This document shows, piece by piece, positions 6,231 to 63,084 of a DNA stretch of 64,000 nt (its first letter is position 1; each line of letters opens with the position of its first letter). Under the pieces are notes generated by a model. The model saw nothing but the letters and a program-made list of their open reading frames with translations. It did no database searches and had not been told where the DNA came from. A program made the translations under genes and the position numbers. The stretch is from Paenibacillus sp. W2I17 (lineage in GTDB: Bacteria; Bacillota; Bacilli; Paenibacillales; Paenibacillaceae): NCBI RefSeq assembly GCF_030815985.1, contig NZ_JAUSXM010000001.1, positions 6,882,001-6,946,000 of the forward strand. Reading direction: 5' to 3'.

Positions 6231-7400
6231 ATGACTAATAATATATGGTGGGAAGATCTGCAGATCCACATGGTGGAATGGCGGCGTCACCTTCATCGCA
6301 ATCCAGAGGTTTCCTTTCATGAGGAGAAGACATCCTCTTTTGTAGCGGATATGTTGGAGAGTTTTGGCGTTGAAGTGAGGCGTCATGTTGGTGGTCACGG
6401 GGTCATTGGTACAATCCGTGGGGACAAGCCGGGTCCTGTCGTCATGCTGCGAGCCGATATGGACGCACTGCCAATTCAGGATGAGAAGAATATCGAGTAT
6501 GCTTCACAACAAGCAGGAGCGATGCATGCATGCGGTCACGATGGTCATATCTCAACCCTGCTCGGTACGGCATTGTATTTCAGCCGTCATAAGCAGGAGA
6601 TCCGAGGCGAGATTCGCTTTTTGTTCCAGCCAGCAGAAGAATTGCTTCCGGGCGGTGCAGTCCAGGTCATTGAGGACGGTGCGCTTGAAGGTGTGGATGT
6701 CATATATGGCATTCATCTGTGGACCCCGCTGCCTGTAGGTGTTGTTGCCAGTAAAGCAGGACCGATGATGGCTGCGGCGGACGATTTTTACATTGAGATC
6801 AAAGGCAAAGGTGGACATGGCGGGATGCCACAATCCACGATAGATAGTCTTATCGCGGGTTCTGCGCTTGTGATGCAGCTTCAGACCGTTGTCAGTCGTT
6901 CGGTGGATCCATTACAACCGGCGGTGCTGACCATTGGTACAATGCAGGCAGGCTCGGCTCAGAATGTAATTGCAGAGCAATGCAAAATGAGCGGTACGGT
7001 AAGAACATTTGATGAAGAGACCCGAAACGGGATGAAAGAGCGCGTGCTTACCATGGTAGCCCAGACAGGGGCAGCCTATGGGGCAGAGACGCAAGTGAAA
7101 TATATTATGGGATATCCGCCTGTGGTGAATGATGAACAAGAGACAGCACGTTTCTTCAGAGAGGCTACAGAATTATTTGGGGCAGAACGAGTGCAAGCAT
7201 CCCCGATGCTGATGCCAGCGGAAGATTTCGCGTATTATCTGCAGAAGGTTCCAGGGTGCTTTATGTTTGTTGGAGCAGGCAACCCGGATAAAAATGCGAT
7301 CTATCCGCATCATCATCCGATGTTTGATTTTGATGAAGACGCGATGCAGACGGCCGTGAAATTATTTATCGCCATGGCCAAAGGTTACACAGCAGAATGA
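6231..7400 (+). CDS. M20-family amidohydrolase (N-acyl amino acid hydrolase type)
   Basis: The ~389-residue cytosolic hydrolase is of the M20D/HipO/AmhX type, which removes an acyl group from an amino acid. It shows the family blocks RRHLHRNPEVSFHEEKT, MLRADMDALPI, MHACGHDGHISTLLG (metal-binding Cys and His residues), FQPAEE (catalytic and metal Glu), YGIHLWTPLPVG and, near the end, PAEDFAYYLQKVPGCFMFVGAG and HHHPMFDFDED. The ATG at 6231 has a GGGTGGAGA site at proper spacing; the in-frame GTG/ATG choices further up lie over that site. It is a single-gene unit between yugN (divergent) and a strong terminator. The exact substrate cannot be read from sequence. Confidence 0.88.
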   Translation: MTNNIWWEDLQIHMVEWRRHLHRNPEVSFHEEKTSSFVADMLESFGVEVRRHVGGHGVIGTIRGDKPGPVVMLRADMDALPIQDEKNIEYASQQAGAMHACGHDGHISTLLGTALYFSRHKQEIRGEIRFLFQPAEELLPGGAVQVIEDGALEGVDVIYGIHLWTPLPVGVVASKAGPMMAAADDFYIEIKGKGGHGGMPQSTIDSLIAGSALVMQLQTVVSRSVDPLQPAVLTIGTMQAGSAQNVIAEQCKMSGTVRTFDEETRNGMKERVLTMVAQTGAAYGAETQVKYIMGYPPVVNDEQETARFFREATELFGAERVQASPMLMPAEDFAYYLQKVPGCFMFVGAGNPDKNAIYPHHHPMFDFDEDAMQTAVKLFIAMAKGYTAE

Positions 7401-7417
7401 CTTTAGATGCAGTTGGG

Positions 7418-7457
7418 CATCCTGTTCATACCAAGGTATGGGCAGGATGTTTTTTTT
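7418..7457 (+). terminator. Terminator after the M20 hydrolase
   Basis: CATCCTGTTCATACC pairs with GGTATGGGCAGGATG around an AA loop, followed by T8. Confidence 0.9.
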
Positions 7458-7472
7458 GTGGATTTTATTAGA

Positions 7473-7572
7473 GGTTGTTCCAAAAGTCCACTTTTCGGTA
7501 CTGAAAATCAGACTTTTTGAACTCGAAATTGTAGCGGTTCATTTTCGGAAGCTGCCGGAACTGGACTTTTTT
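7473..7572. repeat. ~100-bp nested palindrome in the leader of the XPB gene
   Basis: GTTCCAAAAGTC (7477-7488) pairs with GACTTTTTGAAC (7511-7522) with one mismatch, and AAAAGTCCA (7482-7490) can also pair with TGGACTTTT (7562-7570), so two alternative folds exist. The GGTTGTTC-AAAAGTC arm is shared with the hairpin at 42013-42043, which suggests a dispersed repeat family. Confidence 0.6.
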
Positions 7573-7593
7573 GTGATAGGAGGAAGGCTCCAA

Positions 7594-9288
7594 ATGGAAG
7601 GAACAGAACGTATGGTAAGAACGGATGCTTGTATCGTTCAGCGAGATTTTACAGTTTTGCTGGAAGTTGGCCACCCCGGATTCGAAAGAGCAAGAGAGCA
7701 GCTTGGGATGTATTCAGAACTGGTTAAGACACCAGCAGCGTTTCATACCTATCGAATCACTCCGTTATCGCTCTGGAATGCGGCTGCGCTGGGATGGAAT
7801 GCAGATCAAGTCATCGCAAGTCTGGAGCTGGTATCCCGCTGGAACGTGCCTGCTGCACTCATACAGGATGTTCGGAGAATCATGGATCAGTATGGCAAAT
7901 TAAAGCTGCATTCCGAAGCAGATCACACCAGAATGCGTCTTTACAGTGAGGATGAGCGGTTACTGGATGAATTAAGTGGATTGAAATCGATAGCTGCCTT
8001 TCGTATGGAACGTAAGGACGCTCATGAACTTTTGCTCCCAGGAGAACAGCGAGGGTTATTAAAAAGGGAATTAACACGTTTGGGATACCCCGTACTTGAT
8101 TACGTGGGGTATCGAGAGGGGACCAAGCTTTCATTTGATTGGCGCTCTAATGATCCAGGGGACCACTCTGAGCGATTTGCGCTGCGTTCTTACCAGAGAG
8201 AGGCTGTGGATGCATTCGAAGGCAGTGAGGGCATGGGAGGAAGTGGTTTACTCGTACTTCCTTGTGGGGCAGGCAAAACGGTCATTGGCATGGCCGTTCT
8301 GGAGCGGCTTCAATGTGAATGCTTGATTTTGACGTCCAATACAACGTCTGTGCGACAGTGGATTCAGGAAATTCAAGACAAAACCACGATTACCAGCGAA
8401 CAGATTGGTGAGTATTCAGGTCAGAAAAAACAGGTGAAACCTGTGACTGTAGCTACATATCAGATTCTTACACACCGGAAATCAAAGGATGCTGATTTTA
8501 CACATATCAAACTGCTCAGTGAGCGGCAATGGGGGCTGATCATATATGATGAAGTACATTTGCTGCCAGCACCAGTGTTTCGTGCAACTGCGGATATTCA
8601 AGCTACGCGAAGGCTGGGATTAACCGCCACATTGGTTCGAGAGGATGGCTGTGAACAGGATGTGTTTTCGTTGATTGGTCCAAAGCTCTATGATATGCCG
8701 TGGAAACAACTGGAGCAGCAAGGGTGGATTGCCGATGTACAATGTCAGGAGATACGTATCCCGTTTTCCCCGGAACTAAGATCAAATTATCTGCAAGCCG
8801 AGGTTAAACATCAATTTCGATTGGCTGCCGAGAATCCGGCGAAGGTACATGTAGTTAAGCGTTTGCTGGAACGTCATCGGGATTTGCCTGCGCTAGTGAT
8901 TGGACAATATCTGGATCAGTTAGAGTTGATTGCCCGGGAAATTGAAGCACCTCTGATCTCGGGAACCATGTCACAGCAAGAGCGAATCAAATGGTTTGCC
9001 GCTTTTCGACGAGGGGAGATTAAAACGATTGTTGTATCCAAAGTTGCCAATTTTGCTGTGGATCTGCCCGATGCTGCTGTTGCACTTGAGATATCCGGAA
9101 GTTTCGGGTCAAGACAGGAAGAGGCACAGCGTTTGGGGAGAATTCTGAGACCAAAAGCTGGAGAAAACAAAGCATATTTCTATGCACTGGTATCAGAGGA
9201 CAGTAAGGAACAGGAGTTTGCATTAAATCGTCAGATGTTCTTGGTGGAGCAGGGATATGAATATGCCATCGTGCATGAGAACGAATAG
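7594..9288 (+). CDS. Bacterial XPB-type DNA helicase
   Basis: The ~564-residue superfamily 2 helicase resembles XPB/Rad25, the 3'-5' repair and transcription helicase of eukaryotes and archaea; bacterial forms are known from mycobacteria. An N-terminal damage-recognition-like region (1-190) is followed by motif I PCGAGKT (Lys228), motif II DEVH (319-322), motif III LTATLVRED with the XPB-specific RED triad (349-351), and the C-terminal motifs KVANFAVDLPDA and QEEAQRLGRILRPK. The ATG at 7594 is chosen because a GGAGGAAG site lies 8-10 bases before it and the frame upstream runs through the palindrome. The next gene follows after 36 bases and encodes the usual partner. Role in repair is by family; the bacterial pathway is not settled. 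Confidence 0.9.
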   Translation: MEGTERMVRTDACIVQRDFTVLLEVGHPGFERAREQLGMYSELVKTPAAFHTYRITPLSLWNAAALGWNADQVIASLELVSRWNVPAALIQDVRRIMDQYGKLKLHSEADHTRMRLYSEDERLLDELSGLKSIAAFRMERKDAHELLLPGEQRGLLKRELTRLGYPVLDYVGYREGTKLSFDWRSNDPGDHSERFALRSYQREAVDAFEGSEGMGGSGLLVLPCGAGKTVIGMAVLERLQCECLILTSNTTSVRQWIQEIQDKTTITSEQIGEYSGQKKQVKPVTVATYQILTHRKSKDADFTHIKLLSERQWGLIIYDEVHLLPAPVFRATADIQATRRLGLTATLVREDGCEQDVFSLIGPKLYDMPWKQLEQQGWIADVQCQEIRIPFSPELRSNYLQAEVKHQFRLAAENPAKVHVVKRLLERHRDLPALVIGQYLDQLELIAREIEAPLISGTMSQQERIKWFAAFRRGEIKTIVVSKVANFAVDLPDAAVALEISGSFGSRQEEAQRLGRILRPKAGENKAYFYALVSEDSKEQEFALNRQMFLVEQGYEYAIVHENE

Positions 9289-9324
9289 TTCATTTATACT
9301 CGCGAAAAGAGGAGGGATTGGGAT

Positions 9325-11043
9325 ATGTCTTCATTTCAACCAATAGATGAGCCTGTGGTACTGAACCTTGATTCATGGTCAAAGCTTACTTTGGTGGAGC
9401 AAAAAGTGCTTGGTGCAATTTTTCACAAACATGCCGGTCAGCCTTTTTCCTCCCTCCTGCCCCGAGAACAGTGGGCCATCGAAGGACTAAGTGTCGCAGA
9501 AGCCAAATCTTCATTTTCCAACCTTAGGCAGCAAAGATGGATTGAATCTGTATATAAGAGTTGGGGAGAGCGACTATTCTATATTCCTGCTTCGTTGATG
9601 GACACATTGACGCTTGCTTACGCACAAAGAGTGGGTATAACCGTTAAACAGATGGCACAGCATGCTTATGTATTACAGGAAGGAAAGCCGGATATTGCTG
9701 CAGAGCTGCTTCATCTGATCGCGTGGATCGAAAGAGAAGGACTTCCTTTGACAGGGAAGGGCACTATACATAAGAAAAGTGTTCAAAAATTAAGTGTGAT
9801 CACGGTGTTATCTTCGACAGACTTTGATGGTTTGGGCATCCGATATGAACATTCGGATTTATATCCGACCCACGTAGCAATCCTTCTGGATCTACTGCTC
9901 AGTCTGAATCTGGTCCAGAAGTCAGAAGGCCAAATTCAGATTGTAGATCATCGATTACAAACATGGTTGAAGCTCTCGTGGAGACAGATGCAGCGGGAAA
10001 TATATCAAGCGTGTATGGAAAGATACGGAGAAGCTGAACCCGCGTTGCAGCATTTCCGTTATCAATTGGCATTGTTTGCTCCAGAAAAAAACATATGGTG
10101 CCATATAGAGAATTCGGAATTGAAACCACGGGTCAGGGGCTGGCTCTACGCACTGGCTGGCTGGGGTTATGGTGAAGTAGGAGAAGATCAGTCGGGAGCG
10201 CTGGCATTCCGTTGGCTGATTGAACCGCAGACCCTGTTATATCCAGAACGCGAGATTGTAAGTGAGTCGGAGCCATGTGGATTTTACATGCAGCCTGATT
10301 TCGAAATGTTGGTGCCGCCGGAAGCAGGGCCTGATGTAATCTGGATGCTGGAGCAATACGCAGAACGGGTGACGCGTGATCGAATGTCCATCTACCGTAT
10401 GACAAGAGAACGATTCATTTCGGCCATAGCCAGTGGGTATGGACTACATGAAGTGATGGAGTTTCTGGATCAATATGCGCTGACAGGTATACCGGAGAAT
10501 GTACGGATTGCGTTAGCAGATTGGGGCAAGGAGACGGATGCTGCACCATTGACTGTAGATAGAAGTATGGAGGTAATGGAGGAAAGTACAGGCTCCGCAG
10601 ATGATCCGAAGTTATTAGAAAAGGATATGTTGAGCGGTGTATATTCTTCTTTCTACACTCCCGATAATCAAGGTCTGGTTGATGTTCCTGCATCTCTGCA
10701 TGGGTTGGAGCGTGATCATTCTGTCATTGAGAAGAAGTTCTCTCTGTTGGGATTTGAGGAGATACCGGAGACCTGGTACAAGGAGTGGCGTCGATATCAT
10801 AGTTCAACAGCCCGACAGATTGCTGCCAAAGCTATTGAGTGGCAGACCAAGCTGGGGATACAACAGGAAAATCGTACGCAATACCTCATTCCACATCAGG
10901 TAGAGGGTCATGAACAATGGACTTTAAGCGGTTGGTGCATGTTGGATTCAAGTGAAAATACATTAGAGACGGAATGGCGTACATTCTCCCCGTCAGAGTG
11001 GGATACAATGCGTCTTATCCTGCCAGATGATGTCATAACCTGA
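9325..11043 (+). CDS. XPB-associated protein with helicase C-terminal (Helicase_C_3-like) domain
   Basis: The 572-residue protein has no ATPase motifs. Its N-terminal half looks like winged-helix DNA-binding modules (EQKVLGAIFHKHAGQPFSSL and LRQQRWIESVYKSWGERLFYIP). Residues around 315-400 match the XPB/Ssl2-like domain: FYMQPDFEMLVPPEAGPD, then DRMSIYRMTRERFISAIASGY and EFLDQYALTGIPENVRIALADW. Homologues are commonly coded beside bacterial XPB; they are thought to work with the helicase, much as Bax1 does in archaea, but no nuclease motif is obvious here. The ATG follows AGAGGAGGG by about 9 bases. It forms a two-gene operon with the XPB gene. The last ~150 residues are not recognised. Confidence 0.78.
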   Translation: MSSFQPIDEPVVLNLDSWSKLTLVEQKVLGAIFHKHAGQPFSSLLPREQWAIEGLSVAEAKSSFSNLRQQRWIESVYKSWGERLFYIPASLMDTLTLAYAQRVGITVKQMAQHAYVLQEGKPDIAAELLHLIAWIEREGLPLTGKGTIHKKSVQKLSVITVLSSTDFDGLGIRYEHSDLYPTHVAILLDLLLSLNLVQKSEGQIQIVDHRLQTWLKLSWRQMQREIYQACMERYGEAEPALQHFRYQLALFAPEKNIWCHIENSELKPRVRGWLYALAGWGYGEVGEDQSGALAFRWLIEPQTLLYPEREIVSESEPCGFYMQPDFEMLVPPEAGPDVIWMLEQYAERVTRDRMSIYRMTRERFISAIASGYGLHEVMEFLDQYALTGIPENVRIALADWGKETDAAPLTVDRSMEVMEESTGSADDPKLLEKDMLSGVYSSFYTPDNQGLVDVPASLHGLERDHSVIEKKFSLLGFEEIPETWYKEWRRYHSSTARQIAAKAIEWQTKLGIQQENRTQYLIPHQVEGHEQWTLSGWCMLDSSENTLETEWRTFSPSEWDTMRLILPDDVIT

Positions 11044-54217: not shown

Positions 54218-54706
54218 TTGATGTGACGCGGAATATCGCTGATGCGTTATCGGACTATAGTATCAATTTTGTAATCTTTATGGTTAATACTGTAAAAAGG
54301 TCCGCAACTTTAACATATGACTCGCGTTTAATGGGGTATGTGTTCAAACGGAAAACGATGCCTGTACCCGCGTTGCACATAACAATAAAGGTTCCAGAAG
54401 TGCAAGATCAGCAGGCATCTAATCCATGCAATTCGAGCAAATATTAGTGTTTGGGAATCAGAGGTATCCCAGAGGCTTCCGAGTGGTAGTTGATGGACCT
54501 TTTTACGAATCATGGGCAGAATGTTCCATTTCATGTTTGCTTCCATCAGCCTAGTTACAAATGCAGAGTCTTAGCGCTATAGTGAGAACTACACCGCTGA
54601 CATCTCTACCAAGCGGACATCCGAAGCGGAATGATTCCTATGCTTCATGTTGGACCATTCGGTGTTGAAGCAGGATGCATAATAGAGAGGTGAGCAATCT
54701 AAAGAC

Positions 54707-56932
54707 ATGAGCAGACAAAGACGAAGACGCTGGTTATTAACGGTGTTGACAGGAGCAGTGGTGGTGACTGGCGGGATATTTGCCGGGTGGCACTATATGC
54801 AACCCAAGCTCGTTACGTACACAGCGGAGAACGGCACGGAGATGAAATTCAAGACCGATGGAGACCGGTTCATGGAATACGGGCCAGATGGAACGTGGAG
54901 GGAGATGTTCGTCAAAGGTGTCAACCTGGGCGCAACTTCACCGGGGCATTACCCGGGAGAATTCCCGCTGACCAAAGAGGATTACTTGCGGTGGTTCCAG
55001 CAGATCGAGGATCTGGGAGCCAATGTAATCCGGGTATACACGGTTCACGAACCGATTTTCTACTCTGCATTAGTCGAATATAACCGCGGCCGGGAGCAAC
55101 CGTTATATTTTATACAGGGCATATGGTCACCTGAAGAAGAGTTAATTGAGAAACAGGATGCCTATGCGGCGCATATTGAGCAGACGTTCAAGCAGGAGAT
55201 TGAAAAGGCCGTATCTGCTGTCTATGGCGATGCGGACATTCCTGCCAAGCAGGGAGAGTCTAGCGGCAAATACAAAACGAATGCAGGAAAATACCTGATG
55301 GCCTGGCATGTAGGGACGGAATGGGACCCGGCGATGGTAGACAACACAAACGCAAAACATGCGGACGTGCCGCAGTACAAGGGAGTTCATTTCTCGGCGA
55401 GTCCAGAAGCGTCACCGTTCGAGAACTGGCTCGCAGAGCTGCTGGATCATACGGCGGTCCTGGAGAAGAAGTATGGATGGGAACATCCGATGACCTTCAC
55501 CAACTGGGTAACCACCGATGTGCTGGATCATCCCGGCGAGCCGCTGTATGAAGAGGATCTCGTCAGTGTGGATGCCCGACATATTCAGCCGGAGGCGTGG
55601 CAGGGAGGTTATTTTGCAGCCTACCATGTGTACCCGTATTACCCGGATCTGTTCCATATCGATAAAACACTCCAAACCATCAAGGATGAGAACGGTGAAT
55701 ACAACACGTACAAAAGTTATCTGCGCAAGCTGAAAGCCGAGTTTTCCGATATGCCTGTAATGATTACAGAGTATGGCGTACCTTCTTCTCTTGGTATTTC
55801 CCATCTGGGTATGGGAGGACGGAATCAGGGTGGACATAGCGAGGTGGAGCAGGGAGATATTGACGCGTCATTGACGCAGGATATCTATGATGAAGGGTAC
55901 TCGGGAGCAATTGTGTTCATGTGGCAGGATGAGTGGTTCAAAAAAACATGGAACACGATGCCACTGGAAATCCCGGCTGATCGCCGTGCATATTGGCTGA
56001 ACGTACTGACAAACGAGAAGATGTTTGGCCTGCTTGCCATGGACCCCGGTAAACAGGAACAGTTGACCATCGACGGATCACTGGATGACTGGGATGATCT
56101 GAAGGATGAAGAGGTCACGACCTGGCAGGGCCAAGTGGACGGCATTCAGGAAATGAAGATGACCCATGATGAAGCCTATCTGTATATTGGGCTGACCTTG
56201 GATCAACCGTTTGACCCGGCTAAGACAGTGCTGCGAATTGGGACCGATACACTTGCTGGAGGCAGTCAGCCTGACAAGTTACTACCGGGCCGGACGCTCA
56301 GTGATGGTCTTGAGACGGTGATTACACTGGGGCAGGATGAAGAATCTCAGGTGGAGATCGCCAAGGATTATGACTTTAATCAGCGTCTGTATGGCAAGGA
56401 TGGATACGACATGCTACCAGATCAGCAGTCAGACTCCGCAGATCCGTTCCATCCATGGAATCTGGCAGTCAGCCTGAGAATGACACCGCCGGATACCCGA
56501 TCTGCTCATCCATTCATGAATGAAAAGGTCGGAACATTGAAGCGGGGAACGACGGCTCCCGGTCAGCCCGATACGGATTCATTAACGGCATGGCAGTATA
56601 ACGGCAATCAGGTGGAGATGCGAATTCCCTGGATGCTGCTCGGATTCGGTGATCCGAGTTCGCTGCAAGCGATCGACTATGGACCGCTCAAGAATGGACG
56701 TGAGTTCTCTACAGTTGCTGTGGAAGGCGTTGCACTCATTCCGTGGTTAACGGACCGCGCCACGAAGAAAGTATCTTGGCCTGGGGGTGAACAGACGACC
56801 CTGGATCTGAAGACATTGCCGGTATATAGCTGGCAGCCTTGGGAGCAGGTGCAGTATAGTGAACGCCTGAAGCTAAGCTACGAAAAAATGAAGAAGAGTT
56901 ATGGAAAAATTCCTAGTTTTCAGATCGAATAA
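54707..56932 (+). CDS. Membrane-anchored glycosidase-like protein (clan GH-A TIM barrel)
   Basis: The 741-residue protein has a short basic N-terminus and one membrane anchor (about 9-28, LLTVLTGAVVVTGGIFAGW), so the rest is outside. Residues 60-460 look like a clan GH-A glycosidase: FVKGVNLGATSPG, GANVIRVYTVHEP, AWHVGTEW with Glu205 as likely acid/base, and MITEYGVPSS with Glu355 as likely nucleophile. A C-terminal part (480-720) looks like a carbohydrate-binding or beta-sandwich module (TIDGSLDDWDDL, AYLYIGLTLD). The family number is unknown. First gene of the run, 26 bases before the HEAT protein. It could trim or transfer the polymer made by the synthase two genes on; that is inference. 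Confidence 0.75.
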   Translation: MSRQRRRRWLLTVLTGAVVVTGGIFAGWHYMQPKLVTYTAENGTEMKFKTDGDRFMEYGPDGTWREMFVKGVNLGATSPGHYPGEFPLTKEDYLRWFQQIEDLGANVIRVYTVHEPIFYSALVEYNRGREQPLYFIQGIWSPEEELIEKQDAYAAHIEQTFKQEIEKAVSAVYGDADIPAKQGESSGKYKTNAGKYLMAWHVGTEWDPAMVDNTNAKHADVPQYKGVHFSASPEASPFENWLAELLDHTAVLEKKYGWEHPMTFTNWVTTDVLDHPGEPLYEEDLVSVDARHIQPEAWQGGYFAAYHVYPYYPDLFHIDKTLQTIKDENGEYNTYKSYLRKLKAEFSDMPVMITEYGVPSSLGISHLGMGGRNQGGHSEVEQGDIDASLTQDIYDEGYSGAIVFMWQDEWFKKTWNTMPLEIPADRRAYWLNVLTNEKMFGLLAMDPGKQEQLTIDGSLDDWDDLKDEEVTTWQGQVDGIQEMKMTHDEAYLYIGLTLDQPFDPAKTVLRIGTDTLAGGSQPDKLLPGRTLSDGLETVITLGQDEESQVEIAKDYDFNQRLYGKDGYDMLPDQQSDSADPFHPWNLAVSLRMTPPDTRSAHPFMNEKVGTLKRGTTAPGQPDTDSLTAWQYNGNQVEMRIPWMLLGFGDPSSLQAIDYGPLKNGREFSTVAVEGVALIPWLTDRATKKVSWPGGEQTTLDLKTLPVYSWQPWEQVQYSERLKLSYEKMKKSYGKIPSFQIE

Positions 56933-56958
56933 ATGAGTATAAAGGAGGACCTTTTCAC

Positions 56959-58167
56959 ATGTTTCCAAGTTTGGCTTTGGCCTATCTGTTTTTGTACATC
57001 TGTATCGCACTTGTTGTTGTAGGCGTCATCGTATTGTTTGCCATGAAAATGTCCCACAATGGCAAACGACGCAAGACGGCGTTTTATGAATTGAAGCAGC
57101 GTGACTACTTCACCTATCTGCAAACAGCCTTGACCGAGAATAGTCCACTCAAATTGCCACCAGGCAAGCTGGCTCCGCTGGAACGCAGAGTCATTCAGGA
57201 CAGGCTGATTGAATGGATCGACCAGTTCAAGGGTGAGTATCGCGACAAATTAATCGCACTCTGCCGCGAAGCAGGATTCGTAGAGCATGATCTGAAGGAA
57301 CTGGGCCGTCTGCGTTACGGTCGCCAGATCGATGCAGCGTATCGCTTGGGCGGCATGCGTTGTCCCGAAGCCGTTCCGGGTTTGATGGAATTGCTGAAGG
57401 ATGAGAAACCGGGCCCGATGGCCATTATGATTGGTCGTTCCATCTCCAGATGTACGACTCGGCAAGGTGAACTGAAAGACATGCTGGCGTTGCTGTTAAC
57501 CAAAGGTAAGTCCATTCACCATCTGGCAGCAGATATTCTGCTCGAAACGAGTCTGGATACGAGCAGAATTCTAATCGAATTGCTGGAAGACCGGAATCCT
57601 GATTTTGTCAAAGTCGGACTGGTTGCCATGTGGGGGCAGGCTGTACCTGAAGTGATGCCTGCACTCGACAGACTGGTAGGCGCAGAACATCAGGATGTAC
57701 GTGCTGAAGCAGTGAAGCTGTATCTTAGCGCAAGTCCGGCGCTCCGGGATGAGACAATTCTGAAGCTGATCCAGGATCCCGATCCGGAAGTTCGCGCCGA
57801 AGTGGTACAAGCGCTTGGTTCCAAGCATGCATCTGGCAGTATTCCATTGCTGCGCAAAGCGCTGCGGGATGAGGACTGGAGAGTTCGCTATAACAGTGCG
57901 GAGAGTCTGAGCAAGCTCGGTGAACCGGGATTCGAAGCGCTGTGTCAGGCTGCGGTGCAAGGTACAGTTGCTGAGCGCGAGATTGCGATGCAGCAGATTG
58001 AGAGTACCATGCAGCATACGAGAACCGATGACAGAGCTGTAGAGCAGATGATTGCACATAACAAAAAAAGACTGCTGTACGATCGCTATTTTGGCCCTGT
58101 CCGAGAGAACAGAACCAGCAAGAAGCGCACAGGTGTCGCTACGGTAGGAGGGGATTACACTGCTTAG
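56959..58167 (+). CDS. Membrane-bound HEAT-repeat protein
   Basis: The 402-residue protein has one N-terminal membrane segment (about 5-29, LAYLFLYICIALVVVGVIVL) and a cytosolic body of helical HEAT/PBS-lyase-like repeats: CPEAVPGLMELLKDEKPG, ILIELLEDRNPDFVKVGLVAMWG, IQDPDPEVRAEVVQALGSK and LRKALRDEDWRVRYNSAESLSKLG. Such repeats make protein-protein contacts. The stop lies 8 bases inside the next coding region if the synthase begins at CTG 58160, and AGGAGG in its last codons is the ribosome site of the synthase, so the two are probably made together. Likely a scaffold of the synthase (inference). AAAGGAGGA precedes its ATG. Confidence 0.8.
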   Translation: MFPSLALAYLFLYICIALVVVGVIVLFAMKMSHNGKRRKTAFYELKQRDYFTYLQTALTENSPLKLPPGKLAPLERRVIQDRLIEWIDQFKGEYRDKLIALCREAGFVEHDLKELGRLRYGRQIDAAYRLGGMRCPEAVPGLMELLKDEKPGPMAIMIGRSISRCTTRQGELKDMLALLLTKGKSIHHLAADILLETSLDTSRILIELLEDRNPDFVKVGLVAMWGQAVPEVMPALDRLVGAEHQDVRAEAVKLYLSASPALRDETILKLIQDPDPEVRAEVVQALGSKHASGSIPLLRKALRDEDWRVRYNSAESLSKLGEPGFEALCQAAVQGTVAEREIAMQQIESTMQHTRTDDRAVEQMIAHNKKRLLYDRYFGPVRENRTSKKRTGVATVGGDYTA

Positions 58168-59590
58168 GGATCTACTATTAATCTACGGCATGGTCGCAAT
58201 CTACTATGTTGTTTTTGTAAATACGCTCTACTTTTCCATTTTGGCCTTATCGTTCCGTAACATCTGGACGATCTTCCGGCGGTCGCATTATTCCAAATAC
58301 AATACATTGTCAGGCTCGGAACTGGTGCCTTCCGTTTCTCTGCTGGTACCGGCATACAACGAGGAACTGACGATTATTGAAAATGTGAACTGCCTGATGA
58401 CGCTGAATTATCCAACGTATGAAGTCATTGTTGTGAATGATGGCTCCAGTGATGCCACGCTGAATATCCTGTTGGAGGAATATCGGCTGAAGCCAGTACC
58501 CAATACGAAGATTCGGGGCAAGATCGCCTGTCAGAAAATTCGTGGGATCTATCATAACCCGGAGTTCCCGGATCTGTATGTCATTGACAAGGAAAACGGC
58601 GGTAAGGCCGATTCCCTCAATGCCGGGATCAACCTGTCCCATTATCCGTTGATCTCTTCCATCGATGCCGATTCGTTGCTGGAGAAGGATGCCCTGATCC
58701 GCATGGCACGCATGTATATGGAGAATCCGGAAGAGACGGTAGCTATCGGTGGAGATGTAAGAATCGCCAATGGCTGCAAAATTGAAAACGGGGCAGTGCA
58801 AGATGTATCGCTGCCACGCAAAATCTGGCCCATGTTCCAGTCGATTGAATATCTCAAAGCCTTCCTGGGCGGACGGATTGGCTGGAGTCACATGAACGGT
58901 CTGATCATTGTCTCCGGTGCCTTCGGCATGTTCCGTAAGGACGCTGTAATCGCCGTTGGTGGATACCGGGATGGTTATCCTGGGGAAGACATGAACATCA
59001 TCATCAAGCTTCACCGTTACATGCTGGAGAACAAATTGAAGTATCGCATTGCCTTCTGCCCTGAGGCGGTGTGCTGGACGCAGGCACCGGATTCCTACCG
59101 GATCTTGTCCAGTCAGCGCAAGCGCTGGGGCCGCGGGAATCTGAAGAACATGATCGAGAATCGCGGCATGTTGTTCAATCCGAAATATAAGGTTATGGGT
59201 ATGGTGACCATGCCATATAACGTCCTTTTTGAAGCGCTGAACCCGTATTTCCGGATTACCGGACTTCTGGCTCTCGCTGGATATGTCCTTCTGGATATGA
59301 CGCAATGGCCGATTCTGGTTCTGTTCGGACTGCTGAACTTCGTGAGTGGTTACCTGCTGAGTGTGGGCGCACTTGTCCTGGAGGAGATTGCATTCAAACG
59401 TTACAACAAACTCTCCGATCTGGTCAAAATGCTGGTCTACTCCGCGCTGAAATTCGTGGGTTACCATCAGCTCGGCGTACTGTGGAGATTGCAGGGACAT
59501 GTGCAGTTCATGCAAAACAACAACTCATGGGGTACCATGACACGTCAAAGCTGGTCCGAGGATGAGAAGAAAACAAGCGAAGCCGCTTAA
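58160..59590 (+). CDS. Processive family 2 glycosyltransferase (polysaccharide synthase)
   Basis: The ~476-residue protein has one N-terminal and two or three C-terminal membrane segments around a GT-A domain: VPAYNEELT, VVNDGSSD, GGKADSLNAGI, the metal-binding DADSLLEKDAL, GEDMNIIIKLHR with the catalytic Asp, and QRKRWGRGN. This is the layout of IcaA/BcsA/HasA/YdaM-like synthases that make and export a beta-linked polymer. Start: AGGAGGGG lies 6-7 bases before CTG 58160, and the frame from there adds LLRDLLLIYG, completing the first membrane helix; the ATG at 58190 has no ribosome site. Sugar donor cannot be read; the linked UDP-GlcNAc-type dehydrogenase suggests amino sugars or their acids. 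Confidence 0.85.
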   Translation: MLRDLLLIYGMVAIYYVVFVNTLYFSILALSFRNIWTIFRRSHYSKYNTLSGSELVPSVSLLVPAYNEELTIIENVNCLMTLNYPTYEVIVVNDGSSDATLNILLEEYRLKPVPNTKIRGKIACQKIRGIYHNPEFPDLYVIDKENGGKADSLNAGINLSHYPLISSIDADSLLEKDALIRMARMYMENPEETVAIGGDVRIANGCKIENGAVQDVSLPRKIWPMFQSIEYLKAFLGGRIGWSHMNGLIIVSGAFGMFRKDAVIAVGGYRDGYPGEDMNIIIKLHRYMLENKLKYRIAFCPEAVCWTQAPDSYRILSSQRKRWGRGNLKNMIENRGMLFNPKYKVMGMVTMPYNVLFEALNPYFRITGLLALAGYVLLDMTQWPILVLFGLLNFVSGYLLSVGALVLEEIAFKRYNKLSDLVKMLVYSALKFVGYHQLGVLWRLQGHVQFMQNNNSWGTMTRQSWSEDEKKTSEAA

Positions 59591-59610
59591 GTAAAGAATA
59601 ATCAAAGCAA

Positions 59611-59799
59611 TTATATGTCCAACTAGACATTTACACGATAACGGAGAGGGCAGAAAAAGCCTGAAGAAGCGAAGCGTGCACCTTTATCCCCGGATTTCCC
59701 CTTGTATAAAGGAATCAAAAAATCTGGGGATAACAGTGATCGAAAGGTTGTTCTGTCATCGGAGTGTCAGTGTAAATAACATTTTTGGGACTTATATAG
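59611..59799. mobile_element. MITE-like palindromic element, copy D
   Basis: It has the same core as copies A-C, with ATTTACAC/GTGTAAAT arms. Ends are diverged (TTATATGTCCAACTA at the left; GGGACTTATATAG at the right). It sits inside the polysaccharide locus between the synthase gene and the degenerate GGDEF-receiver gene, ending 28 bases before the latter. It carries the CAC/GTG version of the stem that is CGC/GCG in the other copies. Confidence 0.85.
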
Positions 59800-59827
59800 A
59801 TAATCGAGGAGAAGGGTGGAAAAGAAC

Positions 59828-60631
59828 ATGCCAAATACGGCGACATTGCAGCGTGAGGCTGCCGTTAATGTGTACCGAAGTGTAGAACAGGGATTGAAGG
59901 AAACGGGTGCCGAAACATGCGGCTTAATGTTCATCCATTGTGCAGGAAACTCTCAACCTGAGCAGCAGGTCAGGACACATCTGGAGCAAACGAGCGGGAC
60001 AGCATTCCAGGTGTGGAAGGATGGTGCCACTCAGGCGATTGCCGTCCTGCTGCCAGGGTTGTCACTGGATGAAGTTCATTATGAAGGACTTCGGATCAAG
60101 CATGAACTGCAAGAGACCGTGCCCGGTGCCGATCCACAGATTACACTGGCCAGTTTTCCGGAAGGGGAGCGCCCTTCGAAGGCAACTATTCAGCATATGG
60201 CTGAGTCCTCGAAGCTCGTAGATTCGTCGGAGATTCATATCTACACGCTGGACAATACGGCGGACGAGCCGGAACGAATTTTGATTGTGGACAACGATCC
60301 TACGGTACGCGAATTCCTGCAATTGCGGTTGAAGATGCAGGGCTACGAAACCTATGAAGCCGTCGATGGACTGGCTGCACTGGAATTGATCGAGAAAGTC
60401 ACACCAGACCTGGTGCTCACCGAGCTGAATCTGTATGGCATCGACGGTCTGCCGTTCATCCATCATATTCAGAACCTGGAGATGGAGCATCCGCCCAAAA
60501 TTGTCGTGTTGACCGAGCAACGTGTCGAGCAGACGATCAGCCAATGCTTCCGCAGCGGCGTGGATGATTACATGACCAAACCGTTCTCACCTGTAGAGCT
60601 GGATGCCCGAATCAGACGCTGCCTGCATTAA
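59828..60631 (+). CDS. Degenerate GGDEF domain fused to a pseudo-receiver
   Basis: The ~267-residue cytosolic protein has an N-terminal part (about 10-140) that follows the GGDEF fold pattern (AIAVLLPGLSLDEVHYEGLRI, ITLASFPEGERPSKATIQHM) but with KDGATQ where the GGDEF active-site loop should be, so no cyclase activity is expected. The C-terminal domain (151-267) is a receiver: ILIVDNDPTVREF with Asp155/Asp157, Thr in VLTEQ and Lys251 in MTKPF, but the phospho-acceptor in LVLTELNLYG is Glu199. Asp-to-Glu often mimics the phosphorylated state. The ATG at 59828 follows AGGAGAAGGG. It probably regulates the synthase complex by binding; that is inference. Confidence 0.8.
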   Translation: MPNTATLQREAAVNVYRSVEQGLKETGAETCGLMFIHCAGNSQPEQQVRTHLEQTSGTAFQVWKDGATQAIAVLLPGLSLDEVHYEGLRIKHELQETVPGADPQITLASFPEGERPSKATIQHMAESSKLVDSSEIHIYTLDNTADEPERILIVDNDPTVREFLQLRLKMQGYETYEAVDGLAALELIEKVTPDLVLTELNLYGIDGLPFIHHIQNLEMEHPPKIVVLTEQRVEQTISQCFRSGVDDYMTKPFSPVELDARIRRCLH

Positions 60632-60784
60632 AAGACGGCTTAAATAAGCTGATTGTGTGAAGTACCAAGTAAGAGCTTTTTTACACTATGAATCAGATAG
60701 ATTAGAGCAACATTTAGAGCACAGACACTCATCTATTTATATGGATTTTAAGCACCACCAAATACACTGCCCGGAGGGAATATC

Positions 60785-62152
60785 ATGGAGAATCAACAAT
60801 TCCACACATTACTGAATGCGATTGAAAATAAAGAAGCTGTACTCGGCGTCGTCGGGCTCGGTTACGTAGGACTTCCACTTGCCGTGGAAATGGTCAATCA
60901 AGGTTTCACGGTAATCGGAATTGATCTGGATGCGTCGAAAGTAGAAAGTATCTATCAAGGAGATTCCTATATTCACGATATTTCGTCCGATGAGTTGAAA
61001 AAAGTAATGCAAAGCGGCCGTTTCCAGCCAACGACAGATTACAGTATGCTGCGCGTGATCGACGCACTCAGTATCTGTGTACCGACACCGCTTAGTGAGA
61101 ATCAGGACCCGGATACGTCTTACATCGAGACCGTTGTGGATCAGATCAAACTGCACATGAAACCAGGCATGCTGATTACGCTGGAGAGCACCACTTATCC
61201 AGGTACCACCGAAGAACTGATCCAGCAGCAGCTGGACAAGATCGGACAAGAAGCAGGTAAAGACTATTTCCTCTGCTTCTCGCCTGAGCGTGTGGACCCG
61301 TCGAACGGACGTTTCACAACATTTAATACGCCGAAAGTAATCGGGGGCACGACTGAAGCCTGCCTGAAACTCGGAACAGCATTATATAGCAAGTATGTAG
61401 AAACCGTAGTACCGGTATCTTCGCCGAAAGTGGCTGAGATGTCCAAACTGCTGGAGAACACATTCCGCAGCGTGAACATTGCCTTTGTAAATGAAATGGC
61501 GATGATGTGTGACCGCATGGGCATTGATATCTGGGAAGTTATTGACGCGGCAGCGACGAAACCATTTGGTTTCATGCCATTCTATCCAGGCCCAGGCATC
61601 GGTGGACACTGCATTCCGCTTGATCCGATGTACCTGTCATGGAAGGCCAAAGGCTTCCGTTTCTATAGCAAATTCATTGAGCTCGCGCAATCCACCAATG
61701 ACAACATGCCATATTATGTATTGAACAAAACGTCAACGATTCTGAACGAATACGCTAAATCCGTACGTAAATCCAATATTCTGCTCCTCGGCATGTCGTA
61801 CAAGCCTAATATTGCCGACCTGCGTGAATCACCAGGACTGGAAGTATATGAACTGTTCAAGGAAAGTGGAGCTAACGTTAGCTACTACGATCCACATGCG
61901 GATTCCTTCCAGGACAAGCATGGGGAGACCGTACACAGCGAAGCGTTCAATCTGGAGCAGTTCAAGAAGTACGATTGCATCGTGCTGATCACCAACCACA
62001 GCGATTTGCCTTACTTTGATATTGCCGAGATGGGTGTACCGATTCTGGATACACGTAATGCGTTCCGTTCATACACACATCCGCATATCTACAAGATTGG
62101 TCACTCGGTACAGCATCCTGTGCTTGAGCCAAGTGAAGCGTTGCTCGTCTGA
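60785..62152 (+). CDS. Nucleotide sugar dehydrogenase, UDP-GlcNAc 6-dehydrogenase (WbpA) type
   Basis: The 455-residue NAD-dependent enzyme has VGLGYVGLPLAVEM (Rossmann), ESTTYPGTTEEL, FSPERVDPSNGRF, KLLENTFRSVNIAFVNE and GPGIGGHCIPLDPMYLSWKAK with catalytic Cys276, then GMSYKPNIADLRESPGLEV. The GGHCIPLDP form is typical of WbpA/WecC-like enzymes that oxidise UDP-GlcNAc or UDP-ManNAc; UDP-glucose dehydrogenases more often show GGSCFPKD. It probably supplies a uronic acid of an amino sugar for the polymer. CCGGAGGGAA precedes the ATG. The next gene follows 8 bases after the stop. Confidence 0.9.
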   Translation: MENQQFHTLLNAIENKEAVLGVVGLGYVGLPLAVEMVNQGFTVIGIDLDASKVESIYQGDSYIHDISSDELKKVMQSGRFQPTTDYSMLRVIDALSICVPTPLSENQDPDTSYIETVVDQIKLHMKPGMLITLESTTYPGTTEELIQQQLDKIGQEAGKDYFLCFSPERVDPSNGRFTTFNTPKVIGGTTEACLKLGTALYSKYVETVVPVSSPKVAEMSKLLENTFRSVNIAFVNEMAMMCDRMGIDIWEVIDAAATKPFGFMPFYPGPGIGGHCIPLDPMYLSWKAKGFRFYSKFIELAQSTNDNMPYYVLNKTSTILNEYAKSVRKSNILLLGMSYKPNIADLRESPGLEVYELFKESGANVSYYDPHADSFQDKHGETVHSEAFNLEQFKKYDCIVLITNHSDLPYFDIAEMGVPILDTRNAFRSYTHPHIYKIGHSVQHPVLEPSEALLV

Positions 62153-62160
62153 GGAAATAT

Positions 62161-63084
62161 ATGAGGCAACGGGGCAAACTGGTGGGTATGGCGAAATGGG
62201 CCATTCTGGCTGTGGTGTTGTGCCTGCTGCTTCTTTCCTGGATGTTCAAATGGTTCTCGGCAGAGGAACACAAAGCGACCTGGCTGTGGGACGCGTCCAT
62301 TATTGCAGAGCAGACACCTGAGATTATTGCTTTCTCCAAAGAACAGGGCGTCGATACCATCTTCCTTCAAATCCAGGATGAGTTGCCTGACGCAACATAC
62401 CGCAAATTCATTGCGGCTGCCCGACAGGCTGAGATTGAAGTGCATGGACTTAACGGTCATGCAGACTGGGCCTATGAGGAGAAGCGGGATGAAGGACTTG
62501 CTTTTATCGAGCGAGTACGAGCATACAATGCAGCTTCGGCCAAGAATGAACGTTTCGAAGGCATTCAACTGGATGTGGAGCCGTATCAGCTGAAGCGCTG
62601 GGAGAACGAGGAGAGCAGCGTCATTGCAGAGTGGCAGAACAACATGAAGGCCTGGACAAAAGCCGGCGAGGATGCCGGACTGTACATGAGCGCTGCCATT
62701 CCGTTCTGGCTTGATGCCCGTCAGTCGGCTGAAGGTGAGGGTACATTCAGTCGCTGGGTCATTTCCCACTTCGATGCGGTAGCTATTATGGCTTACCGGG
62801 ATAGCGGACAGCAGATGTATGATCTGTCCAAGGAAGAACTGGACGAAGCGGATGATCTCGGCAAGAAAGTCTGGATCGGAGCGGAACTCGCGGATACACA
62901 CGAGGGGGATCACCTGACCTTTTTCCGTAAACCGGTTAGCAATATGAATGAAGAAATGGCGAAGGTGTTCGATCTGGGTACCTCTCATTCTTCTTTTGCA
63001 GGTGTGGCTGTGCATCATTATGAAGCATGGTATGCCAAGAAGAATGGTATTCCGCTTGCGCGCAAGGATGAAAAGAAGGAATAG
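62161..63084 (+). CDS. Membrane-anchored TIM-barrel (glycosidase-like) protein
   Basis: The 307-residue protein has one N-terminal membrane segment (about 11-31, AKWAILAVVLCLLLLSWMF) and an outside domain that looks like a (beta/alpha)8 hydrolase: TWLWDASI, GVDTIFLQI, FEGIQLDVEPYQL with acidic residues as in GH18-like barrels, MSAAIPFW, FDAVAIMAYRD and GVAVHHYEAWY. Family is not certain. TGAGGAAAT, overlapping the dehydrogenase stop, is the ribosome site, so it is coupled to that gene. With the first gene of the locus it makes two outside-facing glycosidase-like proteins. Confidence 0.72.
   Translation: MRQRGKLVGMAKWAILAVVLCLLLLSWMFKWFSAEEHKATWLWDASIIAEQTPEIIAFSKEQGVDTIFLQIQDELPDATYRKFIAAARQAEIEVHGLNGHADWAYEEKRDEGLAFIERVRAYNAASAKNERFEGIQLDVEPYQLKRWENEESSVIAEWQNNMKAWTKAGEDAGLYMSAAIPFWLDARQSAEGEGTFSRWVISHFDAVAIMAYRDSGQQMYDLSKEELDEADDLGKKVWIGAELADTHEGDHLTFFRKPVSNMNEEMAKVFDLGTSHSSFAGVAVHHYEAWYAKKNGIPLARKDEKKE

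Follow-up and report, generated by a model that had tools for sequence, protein, structure and literature searches.

A widespread, apparently undescribed locus family of Bacilli that probably encodes a synthase-dependent exopolysaccharide system

Processive glycosyltransferases of family 2 (GT2), such as the hyaluronan and IcaA-type synthases, function in Gram-positive bacteria without Wzx/Wzy, ABC exporters or BcsB. In the has operon for hyaluronan, the synthase gene stands together with those for a sugar dehydrogenase and GlmU, and the Pel system combines a degenerate GGDEF regulator, PelD, with a TIM-barrel hydrolase. In the ydaJ-N operon of Bacillus subtilis, exopolysaccharide production requires both the I-site residues of YdaK and DgcK (PMC5422440). 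Here we analyze a locus of six genes in Paenibacillus sp. W2I17 that recalls each of these systems, at positions 54707-63084 of a stretch of 64,000 nucleotides (contig NZ_JAUSXM010000001.1, positions 6,882,001 to 6,946,000; hereafter the window). We propose with moderate confidence that the locus as a whole belongs to an undescribed lineage of synthase-dependent exopolysaccharide systems, and that its product would be an acidic amino-sugar polymer.

All six open reading frames lie on the plus strand, in the order given by an earlier sequence-only reading of the window. The first (54707-56932) encodes a glycosidase-like protein (GH) of 741 aa, predicted from helix and motif evidence to be membrane-anchored and extracytoplasmic, and the second (56959-58167) a HEAT-repeat protein of 402 aa (Pfam HEAT_2, 2.7e-23) with a single N-terminal membrane helix, predicted to be cytoplasmic. 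These are followed by a processive-type GT2 polysaccharide synthase of 466 aa (58190-59590), recognized by Pfam and by motifs; a regulator of 271 aa (59816-60631, although translation more likely begins at the ATG at 59828) that combines a probable degenerate GGDEF domain with a receiver domain (Pfam Response_reg, 8.2e-24); a nucleotide-sugar 6-dehydrogenase (UDH) of 455 aa (60785-62152), assigned to the UDP-N-acetylhexosamine (UDP-HexNAc) type by TIGR03026 and by the ranking of PDB matches; and a TIM-barrel protein of 307 aa with a DxEP motif (62161-63084), also predicted to be membrane-anchored and extracytoplasmic. Pfam thus names four of the six proteins (HEAT repeats, GT2, receiver domain, and UDPG/MGDP dehydrogenase), the GH and TIM proteins matching no family over the cut-off. 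As the sequence-only reading had stated, no flippase, Wzy, ABC, BcsB, deacetylase (IcaB) or PelF/G-like domain is detected by Pfam in the six proteins. That reading regarded the missing exporters as unusual; we disagree, because a single GT2 would both make and export the polymer, and their absence is the normal condition of a processive GT2 system in a Gram-positive bacterium. The GT2 motifs NDGSxD, S[IL]DAD, G[ED]D and Q[RQ]xRW, that is, those of a processive membrane synthase (DxD, xED, QxxRW), are found in all 80 loci of the set described next, in agreement with the processive synthase that had been proposed.

The genes of this locus co-occur, as the sequence-only reading had required of them. 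In 80 named loci, chosen as the best 80 of 140 confirmed GT2 matches, GH, HEAT, GT2, regulator and UDH are all present in 80 of 80 and TIM in 79, the exception (L081) lying on a contig that stops 1.5 kb past UDH; TIM is on the opposite strand in two Cohnella loci (L075, L078). The hosts are Paenibacillus, Fontibacillus, Cohnella and Brevibacillus, with one metagenome-assembled genome of Paenibacillaceae and one record titled Neobacillus. Two of the titles look wrong: the GT2 of L010 (titled P. polymyxa) is 99% and that of L051 (titled Neobacillus mesonae) 80% identical to the Paenibacillus group. The host of the window is itself close to P. amylolyticus and P. xylanexedens (GT2 genes 99-100%, GH protein 99% identical).

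Because the named loci had been selected by GT2, a survey that started from GH was added, covering 398 evenly sampled Bacilli genomes. The GH family was found in 106 of these, about one in four, and 96 of the 113 GH places fetched have a GT2 within 6.5 kb. The other partners at these places are HEAT (77), regulator-type proteins (77), UDH (55) and TIM (37), the HEAT count being too low in that matches of 15-16 bits (L106, L107) fell below the stricter scan used. Those two loci come from one genus and carry GH, a receiver-like protein, the weak HEAT match and GT2 beside genes that look EngB/Lon-like by eye and an AI-2E-type transporter. Among 20 GH-negative genomes drawn from this sample and from a phylum-wide one, a GT2 relative at E 1e-40 occurs in only two, in one of which a HEAT gene adjoins the GT2. 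In the phylum-wide sample GH was found in 22 of 398 genomes, and outside the class Bacilli a GT2 lies near GH in 8 of 16 fetched places (L224 to L228, L232 to L234). Given 80/80 loci and 96/113 GH places, against only two GT2s in the window's own genome that match at E below 1e-60, the grouping is far beyond chance. The most widely shared core consists of GH, HEAT, GT2 and a receiver protein, with UDH and TIM missing from many related loci. Within the best 120 of 2561 GH relatives the NCBI names given are 'hypothetical protein', and some UniRef labels read family 2 glycosyl transferase or GH2.

Two layouts recur: GH-HEAT-GT2-regulator-UDH with TIM downstream, as in the window, and regulator-HEAT-GT2-GH, which in some loci continues with a solitary receiver and then a large protein that matches the receiver profile. 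Gene fusions are of three kinds, joining TIM to GH (L118, L175, L181; also L176, L177), HEAT to GT2 (L226; HEAT score 26.3 bits), and GH to HEAT (L228; HEAT score 44.6 bits). The last has the order GH (residues 21-702), helix (743-761), HEAT (925-1045), i.e., out-helix-in, as predicted for the separate proteins: judged by charge, the GH helix (9-27; five positive residues before, one after) faces out and the HEAT helix (10-28; none before, five after) faces in, and the TIM helix (three before, two after) probably faces out. In six loci (L057, L059, L060, L062, L063, L067) HEAT has only 251 aa with the N-terminal membrane helix retained, so that the repeat part is about 150 residues shorter.

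With respect to the sugar precursor, UDH scores 425.5 bits with TIGR03026 (cut-off 189.8), and its GGHCIP motif is present in all 80 named loci. Its best PDB matches are Cap5O (270 bits) and 4r16, named UDP-ManNAcA dehydrogenase (264), in contrast to 154 bits for the highest-scoring chain named UDP-glucose dehydrogenase; among the NCBIfam equivalogs it ranks WecC-type (247) over TuaD (151), all these scores being below their own cut-offs. Sequence ranking therefore supports a HexNAc-type rather than a glucose-type enzyme, and since UDH ranks with the HexNAc dehydrogenases, the acidic sugar is probably the uronate of N-acetylglucosamine or of N-acetylmannosamine (GlcNAcA or ManNAcA). Additional hints come from the genes for UDP-GlcNAc synthesis. 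Three Brevibacillus loci (L082-L084) carry GlmS and GlmU between UDH and TIM (GlmU of L082 being short, 344 aa), and two Cohnella loci (L073, L075) have GlmS immediately 5' of GH. Within the fetched stretches, many of which end before the expected place, GlmS is present in 9/80 named loci and 27/113 class places, and GlmU in 3/80 and 5/113. In genomes G303 and G276, glmS and glmU are each matched three times (one GlmU match partial in each), two of the three copies lying in or adjoining synthase loci; the window genome, in which they lie elsewhere, and G106 have one of each. The extra copies suggest UDP-GlcNAc as the precursor.

The C-terminal part of the regulator is, by its sequence, certainly a receiver domain, with the site motif TELNL. 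The phospho-acceptor aspartate of a phosphorylatable receiver is absent from the window protein and replaced by glutamate, as it is in 69 of the 80 named loci; ten loci, seven of Cohnella and three of Brevibacillus, have aspartate, and one (L036) is unscored. The glutamate could hold the regulator in a fixed 'on' state. An AlphaFold 2 model of the protein (mean predicted local distance difference test 82.4, predicted TM score 0.50) retrieved lists from Foldseek and VIA-align that were filled by the receiver domain; one Foldseek match is a PhoB variant, carrying D53E and D10A, that is constitutively active.

The N-terminal domain is likely a degenerate GGDEF domain, a conclusion with moderate support. 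With the domain alone, a broad hhalign profile (137 input sequences) gave 65% against GGDEF and 0.8% for a receiver control, and the predicted strands and helices are compatible with a GGDEF fold. Short regulators of intermediate form at other loci match GGDEF at 93%; the window domain matches these intermediates at only 20%, and hmmsearch with the GGDEF profile yielded nothing better than E 0.14. We rejected a whole-protein hhalign value of 99.6% as proof of the link: it is the score of the receiver alone, which reached 99.8% in the narrow comparison. The GG[DE]EF signature of active diguanylate cyclases occurs in none of the 80 named loci, and RxxD in the corresponding segment in one. For the dead GGDEF-pseudo-receiver of the sequence-only reading, 'dead' does not do justice to the glutamate, and descent from GGDEF is no more than likely. 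At the same operon position, L108, L114, L116 and L123 encode long proteins with two receivers and a GGDEF domain by Pfam, arranged as REC-GGDEF-REC, among which only L123 has an Hpt match over the cut-off. The long regulators keep GG[DE]EF in 7 of 12 cases, L123 and L124 lack it and have RxxD before the site, and the short intermediates have RxxD in 8/8. Ordered by sequence, these forms suggest a progression from enzyme through receptor to silent subunit, the direction of which is our inference. The window genome has 17 GGDEF matches over the cut-off, so cyclic di-GMP (c-di-GMP) is probably made there.

On this basis we propose that GT2 would polymerize an amino-sugar chain from UDP-HexNAc and its uronate, the latter supplied by UDH from UDP-GlcNAc (or UDP-ManNAc), and that the chain would leave through the synthase's own membrane channel. 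The HEAT protein could serve as a cytoplasmic scaffold docked on the synthase. The regulator probably descends from a diguanylate cyclase; with the known c-di-GMP sites gone and a glutamate where the phospho-aspartate would be, it might function as an activator, locked or stoichiometric, that works through contact with other proteins. Outside the membrane, GH and TIM, each held by a single helix, would cut or modify the emerging chain. The polymer make-up, export by the synthase and the protein contacts are what we infer, and the synthase-dependent system with a built-in regulator and an acidic amino-sugar product, envisaged by the sequence-only reading, is probably correct. A more far-reaching version, which we put forward tentatively and hold to be somewhat doubtful, is that these loci encode a distinct polysaccharide machine of Bacillota, a 'HEAT-synthase family', with a glycosidase on the outside that a single membrane helix couples to the HEAT scaffold and the synthase on the inside. 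In this version the operon's ancestral phosphorelay diguanylate cyclase would have been converted stepwise, becoming a receptor with an I-site before it turned into a subunit that receives no signal and stays permanently 'phosphorylated', and the polymer made would be a new amino-uronate.

Several observations weigh against this explanation. UDH is present in only one of 18 loci with the regulator-HEAT-GT2-GH order, so the acidic sugar would not be universal. Although the dehydrogenase ranks with the HexNAc type as earlier proposed, UDP-GlcNAc and UDP-ManNAc are inseparable as its substrates by the comparisons used here, and no GlmS or GlmU occurs in any named Paenibacillus stretch fetched. 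A nearby GT2 is absent at 17 of the 113 GH places, among which L217 duplicates L174 in truncated form and L183 is a contig of 10 kb. As for the regulator, Pfam finds no GGDEF in 23 regulators of the window family, and a narrow, domain-only hhalign profile of 23 sequences gave 0.2% against GGDEF, compared to 0.7-2.3% for unrelated controls.

In GH, Glu205 (GTEWDP) and Glu355 (TE[YF]GVP) are invariant in 23 aligned sequences, the two motifs being present in 79/80 and 80/80 named loci; there is no PDB profile match, and Pfam matches remain sub-threshold (GH72 for the window protein and L107, GH113 for L108). Some GH forms (L108, L110, L111, L113 and others) reach 1000 aa through an N-terminal addition of about 330 aa (LNVAIxDKTVP...EHKGLVW-like), for which no Pfam family over the cut-off was found in the two scanned (L107, L108). 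TIM is a relative, over 245 profile positions and with the DVEP motif kept, of PDB 10yv, named by its depositors 'Putative GH97 from Cellulomonas fimi'; Foldseek alone gave low TM scores, and VIA-align placed Cwp19 of Clostridium difficile in the top row, with other barrel families tying with GH18. Cwp19 is a cell-wall protein, and Paenibacillus, Cohnella, Brevibacillus and Fontibacillus are kin of organisms with HexNAc-uronate wall polymers. Both points would suit a wall-bound or spore-associated polymer, comparable to teichuronic acid or a secondary cell-wall polysaccharide, in place of a secreted matrix, with GH and TIM remodeling wall glycan. We consider this the strongest of the alternatives, but an unlikely one: a lipid-carrier priming enzyme, a ligase and a flippase are absent among the six genes, the GT2 motifs are of the processive type, and the full-length diguanylate-cyclase-type regulators of relatives are better suited to matrix control.

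A hyaluronan-like system, in which UDH would oxidize UDP-glucose, GT2 would make a GlcNAc-GlcA polymer and glmU would serve as in the streptococcal has operon, draws on the presence of UDH and GlmU near a single synthase, much as in hasABD; the PDB and sub-cut-off NCBIfam rankings of UDH, both of which place it away from the glucose enzymes, make it improbable. Less probable still is a divergent poly-GlcNAc (ica/pga) locus. PgaC_IcaA is indeed the best NCBIfam match of GT2, but at 134.8 bits it stays far below the cut-off of 422.3 (XrtG-GT, 110.5 against 364; CelA, 37.3 against 699.1), and the six genes include a dedicated dehydrogenase and encode no deacetylase domain. Accidental juxtaposition of unrelated genes, for which the uneven gaps of 225 and 153 bp around the regulator gene might be adduced, has a negligible probability and is already refuted for the core genes by the 80/80 loci, the two gene orders and the three kinds of fusion.

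Most of the first of these gaps is occupied by an interspersed repeat copy on the plus strand (59600-59815), of an apparently undescribed family: among 204 candidates in the window's own genome, 40 were scored, all of them matches including the copy itself, with the others 82-90% identical. GT2 and the regulator are separated by only about 12 bp in L005 and L010. A c-di-GMP riboswitch upstream of the regulator was considered and dropped because no RNA family was detected by Rfam in the window, the repeat included; the spacer is the repeat copy. Upstream of GH, a sigma-A-like promoter matching the consensus (GTTACA, 18 bases, TATAGT) lies at 54554-54583 on the plus strand. Promoter-like matches in the region are rarer than in shuffles (7 versus 12.2), and among 15 aligned upstream regions 11 contain TATAGT and 10 the spaced hexamer pair, the promoter missing from L027, L029, L035 and L042 and only the -10 present in L005. 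The neighboring DinB, YolD, glutaminase and AraC genes hold their positions beside the set in the closest relatives only. Elsewhere in the genome, at 4.06 Mb (L220, 4054000-4072000), there is a second HEAT-GT2 pair, with open reading frames at 6651-7781, 7835-9277 and 9258-10457 of that stretch; the beginning of a 376-aa protein there, with no Pfam family, is similar to the N-terminal domain found in GH forms of 1000 aa.

If the synthase-dependent explanation is correct, these loci represent a polymer system of the matrix or envelope that is widespread and as yet undescribed, for which precursor and topology are predicted and the stages of the regulator can be traced, and which would make gain and loss of c-di-GMP control over a synthase testable. 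What sets the family apart is its wide distribution together with the gene fusions, the aspartate-to-glutamate change in the receiver and the probable decaying diguanylate cyclase. It is apparently undescribed: no description was found in the open-licence papers searched, and in a large survey of synthase operons (PMC7112194) the words HEAT, Paenibacillus and dehydrogenase do not appear in the main text. In line with the sequence-only reading, which could match the set to no described operon, the locus falls outside ica, bcs, pel and yda when the membership criteria of each are applied. Compared with ica/pga, it lacks the IcaB/PgaB deacetylase of those loci, and its synthase stays far below the PgaC_IcaA cut-off, as it does below that of the CelA type of bcs. 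The six proteins have none of the PelF/PelG-like domains of pel, and their synthase is a GT2. The resemblance to ydaJ-N is that a GT2-type synthase (YdaM) adjoins a degenerate-GGDEF regulator (the receptor YdaK), but the I-site required of YdaK (PMC5422440) has a counterpart in just one of the 80 named loci, and the GH8 partner YdaJ has none among the six genes, a separate yda-like set with GH8, a motif-less GGDEF protein and a GT2 being present elsewhere in the same genome (L219, 5122-9002; 4.82 Mb). From the has operon, finally, with which the Brevibacillus form shares the grouping of synthase, sugar dehydrogenase and GlmU, the window set differs by a dehydrogenase that ranks with the HexNAc type and by the addition of HEAT, GH, TIM and regulator genes.

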